A DNA stretch of 64,000 nucleotides from a bacterium. Its GTDB lineage: Bacteria; Hinthialibacterota; Hinthialibacteria; Hinthialibacterales; Hinthialibacteraceae. Below the pieces are notes generated by a model that saw only the letters and a list, made by a program, of their open reading frames with translations, had not been told where the DNA came from and did no database searches. The position numbers were made by a program, and so were the translations under genes. Below, one piece after another: positions 35,639-42,782 of the stretch (position 1 is its first letter; the number at the start of each line of letters is the position of its first letter). Where the stretch lies: the NCBI GenBank assembly GCA_016125385.1, contig WGLV01000005.1:124001-188000 (forward strand). The letters are read 5' to 3'.

Positions 35639-38600
35639 TCAGGGCGCCAGATCAAATGTCCGGACGCCGGTTACGCGGACTTTATGCGTCCCCTCGCCCG
35701 CGATCTGGGCGATCACCATCATCGGGTTGTTCAGCGCCTGAGTCAGTCCGGTGAGGACGAAGGTACGCGTCTGACCGACGGGCAACTGGTTCAAGGGTAT
35801 CTCCTTCAAAACCATATTGGCGCCGTTGCCGATCAGCAGCGTCATCGTGCCCGCGCTGGACGGCGTGTCGCGCACCACGTCGAACTCGACCGCCATGCCG
35901 CGCGGCGCCACGCTCAGGTCATACAACGCGGCGTAACGAACTGCGCTTTGGCCCGGGGCGAGCTCAAGCACCAGACTGGAGCCTTCGATATGCGCCGATC
36001 CGCGTCCCTGATCGGGCAGGAAGAGGTTTGGCTGCCATTGCCCCAGCGAAATCAGGTTATCGGGCGAGCGAGACACGAGGCTCTGTTCAATAACCAGATT
36101 GTCCACGAACAGCGCCGCCGCCGATGAACCGGAGTTATACACGGTGATGAACGGCATCACGGCGGTGTAATCCTGCCCCAGTTCGGCGACGGAAAGACGC
36201 CACTCGCCGCCGGCGACTTCCGGCGCGGAGTGATATGCGTATCCTACCGAACCCGCCACACCGTTCAACTCGGGGAAACCGCCGATAGCGACCTGAAGCT
36301 GATCGGACGAAGCGAAATACCAAGCCTGAATGTGAATCGGGTTGTGGTCCAGCTCAACGCGAGGTCCCATCACAGTCACCAGCGCGCCAGCGGGAACGCT
36401 GACTTTCAATCCGACACCGTTGGAGGCGTCCGGATTGGAGGGATCGATCGGCGCGTTATCGATCGAAACCTGCGCGGTGGGCGGGAAAGCGGCGAAGCCC
36501 AGGCCGAACAGCGATTCGCCCTTGGGTTCGAACGGATAAACGTAACGGCGCTGACCCAGCGGCGGCGTCGGCGTCGCGGTCGCCGTCGGTTGAGGCGTCA
36601 GGGTCGGCGTTCTCGTCGGCGTGGCCGTCCGTGTCGGAGTCGGCGTAATGGTCGGCGTGGGAGCGCCGGGAACCAACGTCGGCGTGATCGTCGGAGACGG
36701 AGTCCGCGTCACCGTCGGAACCGGAACCGAGGTTGAAGTCGGCGGCGCCGGAGGCGTTGTCGGCGTTTGCGTCGCGGCGGGCGGAACCGGGGTATTGGTC
36801 CGCGTCGGAGCCGGCGTGACCGTCCGGGTCGGCGTAATGGTTGGAGTGGGCGCGCCGGGAACCAGCGTCGGCGTGATCGTCGGCGTCTGGGTCACGGTGG
36901 GGGTCCGCGTGGCCGTTGGCGGAATCGGCGTGTTGGTCGCCGTTGGGGTACGCGTCACCGTCGGAGGAACCGGCGTCACAGTGGGCGTCGGGGTTCGCGT
37001 GAGGGTTGGCGTGACAGTCGGAGTCGTCGTCGGCGCCGGGGTTGGAGTAATCGTCGGCGTAGTGGTCGGCGCTGGAGTCGGCGTAACGGTTGGAGTACGC
37101 GTGGCCGTGGGCGTACTGGTCGGCGCCGGGGTATTGGTGGGCGTCGGCGTCACGGTCGGGGTAGGCGTATTCGTCGGAGTCGGCGTGGGGAGCACGTTGA
37201 AATTGATAAACACGCCGCCGGGGTATGGATTATTTGAAGAATCGTTTGAATCGATGCGCAAACGGCGCTGGAACTGGCCGGAAGGCGCTGAATTGAAATC
37301 AACCGAAACCGTGATCTTCTGATTGGCGCCCGGCGCGACGTTGAACGGCGCGGGTGGGTCGAGCGTGATCCAATCGGACGCGATGTCAGGGGCGATGGAG
37401 GTTACGTTCAGCGTACCCACGCCATCGTTATAGACGCGGAACGACTGGCTGGTGTTGTAACTGGGGAAATATTCATTCACCAGCGCGAACGCCATGTTGC
37501 CCGCCGGGACCGAGGTCCCCCGCACTTTCGCCATCCATGTACCCGCTTGTGGATTGTTGACGAAGACCTGTTCGACGTTATCGACCGTGTTAACGCCAGT
37601 AGTGGCCGCCGCAGTGGGCGCGTCTTTGTTCAGTTTCCATGGATAGTATTCCTGCCCATTGGGCGCAACCAGGACGAGATCAAGATTGTTGATGAGCGGT
37701 GCATCGGTTTCGACCGGACCGGCGGTATCCGTCCAGACCAGCGTCACTTTCAGGCGGGGCGCCCCAGACGGCACGGATATCTGATACGGGACGAACGATC
37801 CGTTGGAGACCTCTCCCTCACGCCAGCTGCGGTTTTGAATCAGTTCGGCGGTGTTTTGCGCCTGAATCAGCCCCCAGCCGTATTCGTAATCGGGACCGGT
37901 GCGGCCCAGATCTTTGACGCCGTGGATGATCAGCGCTTTGAACGCGGCGGTGGTGGGCTCGGCGGATAGTTCCTGCTTATAGTACTGATAAAGAAGAACC
38001 GAAGTTCCGCACGCGCTGGGCGACGCCATCGACGTACCGGACATATAGCCGTGGCCATTGTTGAGCGTGGTGGAATAGAGCGTCACGCCATTGGCGCAGA
38101 TATCGGGTTTCACACGGCCATCGTTGGGCGGCCCCCAACTACTGAACGACGACATCGTATCGTCATCATTCAGGGCGCCGATGGTCAGAATATTTTTGGC
38201 GACGCCGACGGGGCCGATGGTGTCATAGGGGCCGTCACGGCGCGGACCGTTGGTATAAGCGTCGGGCCCGTCATTGCGATCGTTGCCGGCCGATTTGAAG
38301 ACGATCAGGCTCTTTCGATAGATCAGGTCGTCATAATTGCGCGCGCCGAGCGCGTACAGACCAAACAGGCGATTTCCGTAATCGACCCAGCTGCTGCCGT
38401 TGTAATACCAGCCAATGATGTAGCCGTAGGAATGATTGGTGAGCCGAACGCCCAGATTATACGCCGCGTCCATCTCGCTGACATCGTTCGTCCAGTCATA
38501 CGAGCGAAGGGTGACGCTGGGCGCCATGCCAAGCGCGCTGGAGGTCGGGTTGCCGGAACCGCCGATGGTGCCCGCCACGTGCGTGGCATGGTTTTCATAA

Positions 38601-41600
38601 TTGCCGTTGGACGAGTCGCCGTAACTGAGGCGGCTGTTCAATTCATTGTGCGGATAAACGCCGCCGCCGTCCCAGATTCCCACGATGACGTCGCGGCCAT
38701 TCAGCGCCCAAGGCAATCCACGGAGCAGGTCGGCCTGCGAGCGGTGCGCGGCGGTGACGTTGTCTTCTTTGAAATCAGGTGGAATGGGTTCGACCCAGCG
38801 CACGACGTCGAGCGCCGCCAAACCAGCCATCGCCAGGGGGCGCAGGGCGACGCGGTAAACGGAATGATATTCCTGCGTCAGTACTTCACCGCCGATGGAG
38901 GCGACCGCCGCGCGGGCGTTTTCATCGCTGACGTCGCTGAAGAAGAGGACGCTGACCGCAACACGGCCATCCGCATAGCGCGCATTGGGCGGGAACTGAT
39001 CGTCAACCGCCATTGGCGACAGTTTGTCGATCAAAGTCGAATTCATCGTCCAGCGTACGCGATCGGATTTGCCGAGACTCATCAGCGATGAAGTTCCATT
39101 GCCACTGGATTCAACCGCAGCCCAGAAGGCGTTGTTGGGAATGTAATCGAGCAGATGGACGCCGCGTTCGGCGAGATCCTGCTGCTGTTGAAGCGATGGC
39201 AGGCGTTCGAACTGAATAAGTGCGTGAGTCACGCCCGCAGAAGAAGAGCGAGGCTGAGCGTTGTTGAACATCTGAACGAAGTTCTGCTGTTGCGTATGAA
39301 TCACGCCGGTGCGTAAGTAGATGTTGAAGTCATCCACAACCGGCTGTTCAGGCATGGGCTGTTTTAACGCAACGTTGTTGAGCCCGTTCGGCGCCGAATT
39401 TCCACCGGAATTGTTGGTGAAATCGAGCGAGAGCGGTTCGACGCGGATCGCCGGATTCCCGGGGATGGGCGTCGCGGTCGCCGTCGGAGTTGACGTGGGC
39501 TGAACCGCGGGCAGCGTGGGCGTTGGTGTCGCGGTAGGCGCAGGCTGCTGGGTCTTTACGTCAATGGTGTAGACGCCTGTGGTGTCGTAATAGCCGATGA
39601 CGAGAGCGTAATAGGTTGAATTGGCCTGAAGCGCGATGCTGACTCTGGAGAAGAAATCCACGCCGCCGTCGTCATCAACGGCGATGACGTTCGTGCGGTT
39701 GTTGGGCCCCAGGATCAGCAGGACGGTGTCCATGCCCGCCTGTCCGGAAACCTGATGCGTTTCAATCACGTATGTTCCCGCGTTAACGGTTTCAAAACGA
39801 TACCAGTCTTCGCTGAAAGACTGCTCGATCGCACCTTGAAGCGCCGGGCCATTGACGCTGATCACCGCGGTGTTATCCGGAGTCGCGGTTACGGTCGGGG
39901 TTGCCGTGCGCGTGGGAGTCGGCGGTTGAGGCGTCGGCGTACTGGTTCGCGTGGGAGTCGGCGCGCCTGGAACCAGCGTCGGCGTAATCGTCGGGGTGTT
40001 CGTCCGCGTCGGGGTGGACGTGGGCGGTAATGGCGTCGCTGTCACGGTCGGCGTATGGGTGCGCGTAGGCGTGGACGTTGGCGGCGCAGTCGGCGTTACG
40101 GTCGACGTTGGCGCGCTGGTTGGAGTCCGGGTAATCGTCGGCGTCTGGGTAATCGTCGGAGTATTGGATGGCGTTGAAGTCGGCGCGCCTGGAACCAGCG
40201 TCGGCGTAACGGTCGGGGTCGATGTACGAGTCGGCGTCGACGTGGGTGGCTGCGGCGTGTTGGTTCGCGTCGGCGATGGCGTCGGCGCGGGGGTAAACGT
40301 CGGCGTACTTGTCGCTGGAGGCGGCGGAGGCAACGTCGGCGTATTGGTCGGCGGCGTAATTGGAGACGGAGTGATGGTCGGGGTCCGCGTCACGGTCGCG
40401 GTAGGCCGGGGCGTAGGGCTGCTGGTCACGGTGGGCGTCAGAGATGGCGCCGGCGTGCTGGTGACTGTCGGGGTCACCGTCGCGGGGACCGATTGACGGT
40501 ATTGAACTGGGCCCGCGTGATCGAACGGCCCATACATGAGCGGGGTTCCGCTTCGGGTCAGGACTAATACCTGAAATTCATAATCATCGCCAAATTGCGG
40601 CCCAGAGGCGTATTGCGCCTCAATCAGCGCGGAAGTCGACGCACTCCATTCAAGGAAGGTATCGGTGGTATTGGCGGCGCGTCCCAGATAATCGAAATTG
40701 CCTGTGCGGTTTCTCCGGACGAAAACCTGGACCTCACCAATGTCGGATGGATCGATCAATCCAGGCTGGAAAACCCAGCGCACCACCAGATCGCGGCTGG
40801 CCAATTCATCGAAATCGGCGCCGTTGCTAATGTCGTCCAGCGAATCGATGGTATCAGTCACCAGAACGGAATGAACCGGATTAACGTTCAGAACAAGCAC
40901 AGACGCGGTGTCGGTCACGGCGGGCTGAAGGCCATCGTTTACCGTCAGCTCAAGCACGTACAGACCCGCCACGGAAGGCGTAAAGGATATCTGTTGACCG
41001 CCGGTGGCGGAGAGCTGGTTCAGACTCAGATTGGGGCCGCTGGCGATCGACCATTGAAAACTATACGAACCATCGCCGCCCGCACCAGAACCGGTCAGCG
41101 CGAGAGTCGACTGGATCAGCGCAATCTGACTGGCGCCGGCGTCCGCTGTGACGAGCGGATTCACGGTAACGGCCACGCTGTCGGTCGAGGGCGGCAGGAC
41201 GCCGTCATCAGCGGTAATCTGCAATACATAGACGCCCGACTGGGTTGGCGTGAAGGTTGGTTCTTTCGTATTGGCGAGCGTCATCTGGGCGGGGTTGAGA
41301 TTGGGGCCGTCGACGATGCTCCATGAATACGTGTAGGTTCCATCGCCTCCGTTGGCGCCGCCGCTGAGGATGATGGTGTGACCGATGTAGGTATTACGGT
41401 AGAGACCGGCGTAGGCGCTGACATAGAGAGGCATATCAACAAAGCGGACGCGCTGATTGCCGGCGTCGGCGATGTACAGGTCGCCATCCTGCTCGACGAA
41501 AACAAAATTCGGGCTGTCGAGATCGGCGGTCAGGGCGTTTACGTTTTCACCGAAGTAAGATTCGCGCCCCGTGCCCGCGACGGTGTCGATGATTCCTTCG

Positions 41601-42532
41601 TGATTGATACGCCGGATTACGTGGTTACCGGTGTCGGCGATGAAAATCTGCCCTAATGGATCAACCCGGACGCCTTCGGGGGAACGCAATTCGGCTTGAA
41701 CTGCCGGACCGCCATCGCCCCGGTATTGAGGATTGCCAATGCCCGCGACGGTGGAAATGATTCCATTGCCCACTACCTTGCGGATGACATGATTGCCCGT
41801 ATCGGCGAAATACAAGACGCCATCCGGACCAAGCGCGACTCCGGATGGAGTATTCAGGCGGGCTTCGATGGCGGCGGTGTTCTGACCGGTGAATCCCTGA
41901 AAGCCATTGCCCGCGACCGTGTAAATGCGGCCATCCAACGCGACCTTGCGAATGCGATGGTTGAGAGTATCGGCGATGTATATTTCGCCATTATCGGCGA
42001 CAAAGAGGTCGCGAGGACGATTGAGGCTGGCCTCCAGCGCGAGTGCGCCTTCGCCGGAAAAGCCGATGCCGCCGTTACCCGCCACGGTTTCGATGGTTCC
42101 ATCCGCGAGTACCCGGCGGATGCGGTTGTTGAAGGTATCGGTGAAATAAACAATGCCGTCTTTTACGAAGACGGCTTCAGGTTTATTGAGCGGAGTCTGT
42201 GCCGCGACCGTGTTTTCAACATCGAAACCAACAGCGCCATTACCCGCGACGGTGGATATCACACCAGCCGGCGATATTTTACGGATGCGATTGTTCTGCG
42301 TATCGGCGATGTAGAGGGTTCCATCGTCAGCGGCGAATACCGATGAGGGTTTGGAGAGATGAGCGGACGTCGCCTGAACGCCGTCGCCGTTATAACCCGC
42401 GTCTCCTGTACCGGCGACGGTAATGATGGTGGCGGCTCCCTGCGCAATCACTGGTTGGCTAATCGCCGTCATGACGCCGATCAGCAGGGATAAAAACATA
42501 AATCCGCCGTGGAGATGGGCTTTCCCGTTCAT
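35639..42532 (-). CDS. Giant secreted protease: NHL repeats, PKD domains, PPC domain, subtilisin (S8) domain, Thr-Pro linkers
   Basis: A 2297-residue exported protein. Order: signal peptide; six NHL repeats of about 57 residues (about 34-366, each with DTxNNRIRK-type ends); two PKD/Ig-like domains (about 370-545); a beta domain; a Thr-Pro linker (680-885); a PPC domain (about 887-994, [19 protein letters not shown]); a propeptide-like region; and a subtilisin domain. The catalytic triad is Asp1288 (GIWDGGG), His1318 (NHATHVAGT) and Ser1501 (SGTSMASP). A jelly-roll domain like those of KP-43-type subtilases follows, then an Ig-like domain, a second Thr-Pro linker (about 1780-1990) and a terminal beta domain (about 300 residues). 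ATG 42532 lies 8 bases after GAGGG; ATG 42538 is too close to it. It is divergent from the PPC-repeat gene. Confidence 0.9.
36560..37190 (+). repeat. Short-period repeat DNA encoding the second Thr-Pro linker
   Basis: The plus strand is built from near-repeats of GTCGGCGT and similar 6-9 base units, which read on the minus strand as TPT, TVTPT and [12 protein letters not shown]. The unit GCGCCGGGAACCA recurs at about 36660 and 36850. Such DNA is prone to slippage and may vary between strains. Confidence 0.8.
39880..40490 (+). repeat. Short-period repeat DNA encoding the first Thr-Pro linker
   Basis: Same repeat type as the second linker tract, with the VPGAPT-encoding unit at about 39960 and 40180. 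The two tracts share long near-identical words and could recombine, which would delete the subtilisin domain between them in frame or out of frame. Confidence 0.8.
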
Positions 42533-42782
42533 TTGCATCGCCCTCGTTTAGAGATGTCTCAACCAGAACTTATTGGTAAGAGGATGTATCAATACAAATC
42601 AAAAACAATCGACTTTACCAAAAATTGTAACACTATGCAAAACTATTTTAAAGCTAAAAATCCATTTTTTTTTCAAAAAAACGATTTTCGAGACACAAAT
42701 CAAAAAAAATCAATATAATGAAACAATCGGATGTGGATTTGTTCAATTATATTCAATGCGGCAAGGAAAAGAACCCAAAATC

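Follow-up and report, generated by a model that had tools for sequence, protein, structure and literature searches.

Sequence and model analysis of a modular subtilase predicted to be nested in a split ASH domain

The closest solved relatives of the protease described here, both by sequence and by fold, are KP-43 (1wmd) and SubHal (5fax). To our knowledge, targeting domains at the N-terminus are normally lost from a protease that matures by removal of its N-terminal propeptide. KP-43 enzymes carry an N-terminal propeptide, which is removed by self-cleavage (PMC11982257). A 2008 survey of prokaryotic subtilases lists the order 'PPC-Subt' and nowhere mentions NHL (PMC2605481).

The window (i.e., the whole analysed stretch of DNA, 64,000 nucleotides) is from genome G000, which belongs to a small phylum of which 14 genomes were examined. 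It encodes a protein of 2299 residues whose catalytic domain and jelly roll align to KP-43 chain residues 9-430, almost the entire mature enzyme (profile, 190 bits), and whose S8 unit yielded a Foldseek E-value of 7e-32 and a TM-score of 0.78 by target; the region N-terminal to the S8 domain matches stand-alone relatives. KP-43 is without flanking modules, whereas the whole zymogen unit here appears to lie inside an ASH domain of a much larger chain. The joined halves of this domain match positions 3-91 of the ASH / HYDIN_VesB_CFA65-like Ig domains (PF22544) above the cut-off, and the joined shells can be aligned with contiguous bacterial ASH domains over their full length, but the A-B loop is interrupted by a 652-residue protease. 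The N-terminal 334 residues match NHL/TEN_NHL propellers of the teneurin type (PF25021, PDB 9ifo); unlike in the latter, neither a YD shell nor other teneurin parts are present and the propeller is fused to a protease. The nested architecture is recurrent and apparently undescribed: no description of an ASH-nested protease was found in the open full-text literature.

Domain composition of the protein and its neighbour

The preliminary description of the gene claimed a large multi-domain protein with a subtilisin protease in mid-chain and an intact catalytic triad, and both are borne out by the reading frame, the Pfam matches and the S8 catalytic residues D1290, H1320 and S1503, with N1419 as oxyanion residue (Table 1). 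Its length of 2297 residues and its numbering (Asp1288, His1318, Ser1501) correspond to initiation from the second Met (M3); the first ATG gives 2299 residues. Its list of parts stands for the NHL propeller, the two PKD domains, the linkers, the jelly roll and the C-terminal beta domain, while the PPC domain is PPC-like only; it included neither the FN3-like domain nor the prodomain (about 200 residues) nor the split ASH domain that surrounds the protease. The predicted signal peptide suggests that the protein is exported.

Table 1. Features of the subtilase gene and of its divergent neighbour (positions in the window)
Feature	Residues	Position	Strand	Basis
Whole ORF, modular subtilase	2299 aa	35639-42538, stop included	-	One uninterrupted frame; Pfam
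Signal peptide (predicted)	1-33	42440-42538	-	Sequence inspection
NHL beta-propeller (TEN_NHL/NHL)	37-370	41429-42430	-	Pfam; relatives
Two PKD domains	375-465 and 466-552	40883-41416	-	PF22352, two stretches
FN3-like domain	553-683	40490-40882	-	Fold by inspection; conserved in relatives
Thr/Pro linker 1	684-886	39881-40489	-	66% T+P
PPC-like domain	887-997	39548-39880	-	Sub-cut-off Pfam; position; conservation
Short Thr/Pro linker	998-1028	39455-39547	-	Composition
Strand A of split ASH domain (predicted)	1029-1042	39413-39454	-	Joined Pfam, conservation, AF2, strand-A scan, profile-profile
Variable spacer and subtilase prodomain	1043-1256	38771-39412	-	AF2; stand-alone KP-43-type homology; end inferred from KP-43
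Peptidase S8 catalytic domain	1257-1570	37829-38770	-	Pfam, triad, KP-43 alignment, Foldseek
KP-43-type jelly roll	1571-1691	37466-37828	-	1wmd alignment, AF2, Foldseek
Strands B-G of split ASH domain (predicted)	1694-1783	37190-37459	-	PF22544, profile-profile
Thr/Pro linker 2	~1784-1994	36557-37189	-	70% T+P (over 1783-1994)
C-terminal region	1995-2299	35642-36556	-	Single copy in genome; conserved in two relatives
Divergent neighbour, PPC-repeat protein	~1014 aa	42783-45827	+	Pfam; CBM-like C-terminal repeats

Profile searches confirmed the propeller, with matches to NHL/TEN_NHL (PF01436/PF25021) above the cut-off in 5-6 stretches (E 1e-35 to 1e-38, 94.5-122.5 bits) and an identity to the propellers of two relatives of 70% and 44%, respectively. 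The PKD pair reached 61 bits, well over the cut-off, and the Pfam scan yielded no significant match for the FN3-like domain. The N-terminal PPC segment, scanned alone, scored 20.5 bits, which is below the gathering threshold of PF04151 (25.9); it is in the expected position and is kept in relatives. The claim that an N-terminal propeller is unusual for a subtilase held, large N-terminal modules being confined to five nested proteins among the 61 S8 proteins of the phylum. As to the claim that a PPC domain ahead of the subtilase is abnormal, the N-terminal placement stands for the PPC-like domain, but the arrangement is not as uncommon as was claimed, the order 'PPC-Subt' being present in the survey (PMC2605481); two nested relatives also have N-terminal PPC or PPC-like domains (L059 and, by reading, L058).

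The C-terminal region, which yielded no significant Pfam match, probably consists of two beta-sandwich (CBM-like) domains; its model has a pLDDT of 57, at which the matches to CBM22 and to a surface-glycan-binding protein are a hint at most. The neighbouring PPC-repeat gene is separated from the subtilase gene by a gap of about 244 bp (likely start 42783) and may encode a functional partner. The divergent pair is kept in G001 (neighbour at L036:7245-10412) and in G004 (L037:3896-6622), which points to shared regulation or a common function.

The split ASH domain and the protease unit within it

Insertion of a KP-43-type unit (prodomain, S8 domain and jelly roll) into the loop between strands A and B of an ASH/HYDIN-type Ig-like domain is well supported by sequence comparison and by the predicted model. 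The B-G half starts without a first strand, and a typical ASH first strand is located at residues 1029-1040, 652 residues off. The B-G half alone scored 21.7 bits against PF22544 in the protein scan (27.2 in the genome search), whereas joining residues 1029-1045 to 1694-1780 raised the score from 21.7 to 28.8 bits, which passes the cut-off of 25.5. In the profile-profile alignment, 12 joined shells and 25 contiguous ASH domains stayed in register over the whole length from strand A onwards, apart from a gap of 5 residues at the protease site; the score was 113.7 (99.7 without strand A). A scan with a strand-A matrix built from contiguous ASH domains only ranked the proposed site first in 11 of the 12 nested proteins and second in the other one (509-1692 upstream windows each); no strand-A candidate was detected just before strand B in these proteins. 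Five homologues all share the strand-A residues I, R, P, L, L and F, and differ from one another in both sequence and length over the 30 positions that follow.

The AF2 model of residues 1027-1783 (23 sequences) has a pLDDT of 82.8. Residues 5-8 and 11-15 of the segment were assigned to strands by DSSP (pLDDT ~87), as strand calls and not as pairing, and are followed by a disordered stretch, the prodomain, the S8 domain, the jelly roll and the ASH remainder. Structure prediction, which had been proposed as a check, is accordingly in line with the S8 domain and jelly roll and, at the level of strand calls, with the nest of strand A and the ASH half.

The catalytic domain matched Peptidase_S8 (PF00082) with 128.5 bits over residues 1281-1556, and both the D/H/S triad and the oxyanion Asn of the S8 fold are intact. 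The predicted strands at residues 1572-1691 form a jelly roll directly after it, to which the weak Pfam matches following the protease (PF04151 and PF01483, PPC and P-domain) correspond. A proprotein convertase was considered and rejected, the P-domain PF01483 scoring 12.5-13.5 bits against a cut-off of 21. A homologous prodomain region is present ahead of the S8 domain according to the stand-alone relatives and the AF2 model, and in the profile alignment the first residue of mature KP-43 falls at about residue 1257. In stand-alone relatives, which come from many phyla, the match is confined to about positions 73-661 of the segment, and these limits mark the insert borders.

Predicted retention of the N-terminal arm and competing readings

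The domain order, the triad, the nest and its conservation are shown at the level of sequence and predicted structure, and from these we infer a clamp function of the split ASH domain. The favoured reading, with a probability of roughly 0.6, is that of a nested, exported KP-43-type subtilase in which this domain holds the N-terminal arm after self-cleavage. The subtilase would fold and cut itself at the junction of prodomain and catalytic domain (about residue 1257), as in KP-43, and the first 1256 residues, comprising the NHL-PKD-PKD-FN3-PPC arm, would be freed unless held. Strand A, upstream of the cut, would stay lodged in the ASH sheet, the other strands of which lie downstream of the protease; because strand A and strands B-G are predicted to form one domain across the cut, the two halves should stay together without a covalent bond. 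The active protease would then retain its N-terminal binding arm and its C-terminal beta-sandwich arm, with the Thr/Pro linkers spacing the parts. Probable ligands of the arms are carbohydrates or proteins on particles or surfaces, and the protease would act on the held substrate in extracellular nutrition or surface processing.

Donor-strand complementation in pili, where an incomplete Ig-like fold is filled by a distant strand, offers an analogy, and no homology is claimed; in pili the strand is bound non-covalently, as strand A would be here, but strand A is part of the same polypeptide and precedes a self-cleaving protease. A pilus example is FimA (PMC6615685).

In the census of the 61 S8 proteins of the phylum, based on family-search coordinates (a first motif-based triad scan had missed many S8 proteins), the catalytic domain is preceded by 789-1280 residues in the five nested ones and by at most 340 in the other 56, whose additional modules are all C-terminal (six of these 56 are truncated at the 5' end). 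Nesting coincides with large N-terminal modules in 5/5 versus 0/56 proteins, with a Fisher p of about 2e-7 if these were independent, whereas the five nested proteins are homologous. These figures, together with the self-cleavage known for KP-43 relatives (PMC11982257), speak against the main competing reading, in which the nest is real and serves as a rigid two-point mounting that fixes the protease and shields short linkers, propeptide cleavage being irrelevant or absent. We regard this reading as unlikely, though as a real rival, because the two reprolysin-like inserts leave hardly any space within the nest for a propeptide; reprolysin-like nests without an obvious propeptide (L104/L105) fit such a mounting, as does the occupation of the ASH loop by non-peptidase inserts in G071. 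For the same lack of propeptide room, retention of the arm cannot be the sole reason for nesting.

A simpler account, a surface protease with domains strung like beads, an unusual N-terminal propeller and PPC domain, and linkers that set the cutting distance, was advanced in the preliminary description. The domains and linkers do exist, as judged from Pfam and composition, and binding through the propeller with cutting at a linker-set distance is plausible for the predicted arm; as a full account it is improbable, since it has no place for the split ASH domain or for the expected self-cleavage, by which the propeller would be cut off. Least probable of all is the absence of any split domain, with residues 1029-1042 a chance or linker motif and residues 1694-1783 an ASH domain lacking its first strand or starting differently. 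Random 14-mers did score as well as strand A in several proteins when joined HMM scores were compared, the join lacking native loop spacing, and this control was replaced by the strand-A scan and the profile-profile alignment; both of these, the joined Pfam score, strand-A conservation and the AF2 model are all contrary to it, and the strand-A motif is also found upstream of unrelated peptidases ahead of the same ASH shell.

If retention by the split ASH domain is correct, a split Ig-like clamp would offer a generally applicable means of keeping N-terminal targeting domains after propeptide removal, and it would explain why nested subtilases have N-terminal propellers and their relatives do not. 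The shell apparently swaps unrelated proteases, which would bear on the assembly of large secreted enzymes.

Occurrence of the nest in relatives and other inserts of the ASH loop

The search for the same NHL-PPC-S8 order, proposed earlier, recovered the full order from NHL to C-terminus in two relatives and part of it in a third genome. G001 has the order NHL-PKD-FN3-linker-PPC-linker-ASH[S8]-linker-C-terminus, with 63% identity over the nested segment, and contig C1 of G004 has it with one PKD domain (51%). The G004 record is labelled Omnitrophota; misclassification as Omnitrophica has been reported for the OLB16/SURF_12 lineage (PMC10066038). In G008 (48%, contig cut at both ends), the NHL-first order is shared up to the ASH domain and then diverges. 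On this contig (G008:C606, L057/L039), the nested subtilase is followed by a second strand-A motif, PEIHIDPLTLSL, and then by a papain-like C1 peptidase, beyond which the contig stops before any ASH remainder. The nested unit on contig C65 of G004 is preceded by five PPC-like repeats, and a nested KP-43 unit with FG-GAP repeats and a contiguous ASH domain is present in L060 (labelled BRC1). A protein from a MAG labelled Gammaproteobacteria (L059:5370-10712) combines an M6 metallopeptidase, an InlB B-repeat-like region, two PPC domains and an ASH-nested subtilase in one polypeptide.

The ASH B-G profile detected only six loci in the phylum, i.e., the five nested S8 proteins and one M6 case. The latter appears to be spread over two contigs, G013:C203 ending inside the M6 domain behind PEIRIEPLSLNF and G013:C430 running from M6 into the ASH half, and these probably represent one M6 gene; the strand-A scan ranked the proposed site first in its N-terminal half. 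The M6 shell is 42% similar to that of the window, as similar as several S8 shells (38-48%), which suggests from sequence that inserts are exchanged within one shell lineage.

Beyond the phylum, the same shell is occupied in G142 by a C1A peptidase together with its lectin-like domain, in G290 and G416 by S8 proteins of another, classical type, and in G432 and G439 by reprolysin-like metallopeptidases. The nested proteases described here are a sample of those in genome records and metagenomes, and the insert families are a minimum. These sequences show that unrelated peptidases of several phyla occupy the same ASH loop. That the A-B loop is a reusable socket for at least four unrelated peptidase families (S8, C1A, M6, reprolysin-like) in several phyla and, in addition, that the split Ig-like domain is a non-covalent clamp which keeps N-terminal binding modules after zymogen self-cleavage is a combined claim that we put forward tentatively, at slightly below even odds.

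Use of the loop by peptidases only was rejected: in a G071 protein (L108:2462-5515), A-B loops of ASH domains hold non-peptidase domains of about 200 residues, twice in the same chain. The C-terminus of this protein resembles a T9SS sorting signal. At G004:C15:13312-14676, a match to the S8 family contains a single in-frame TGA within a frame of 1113 aa.
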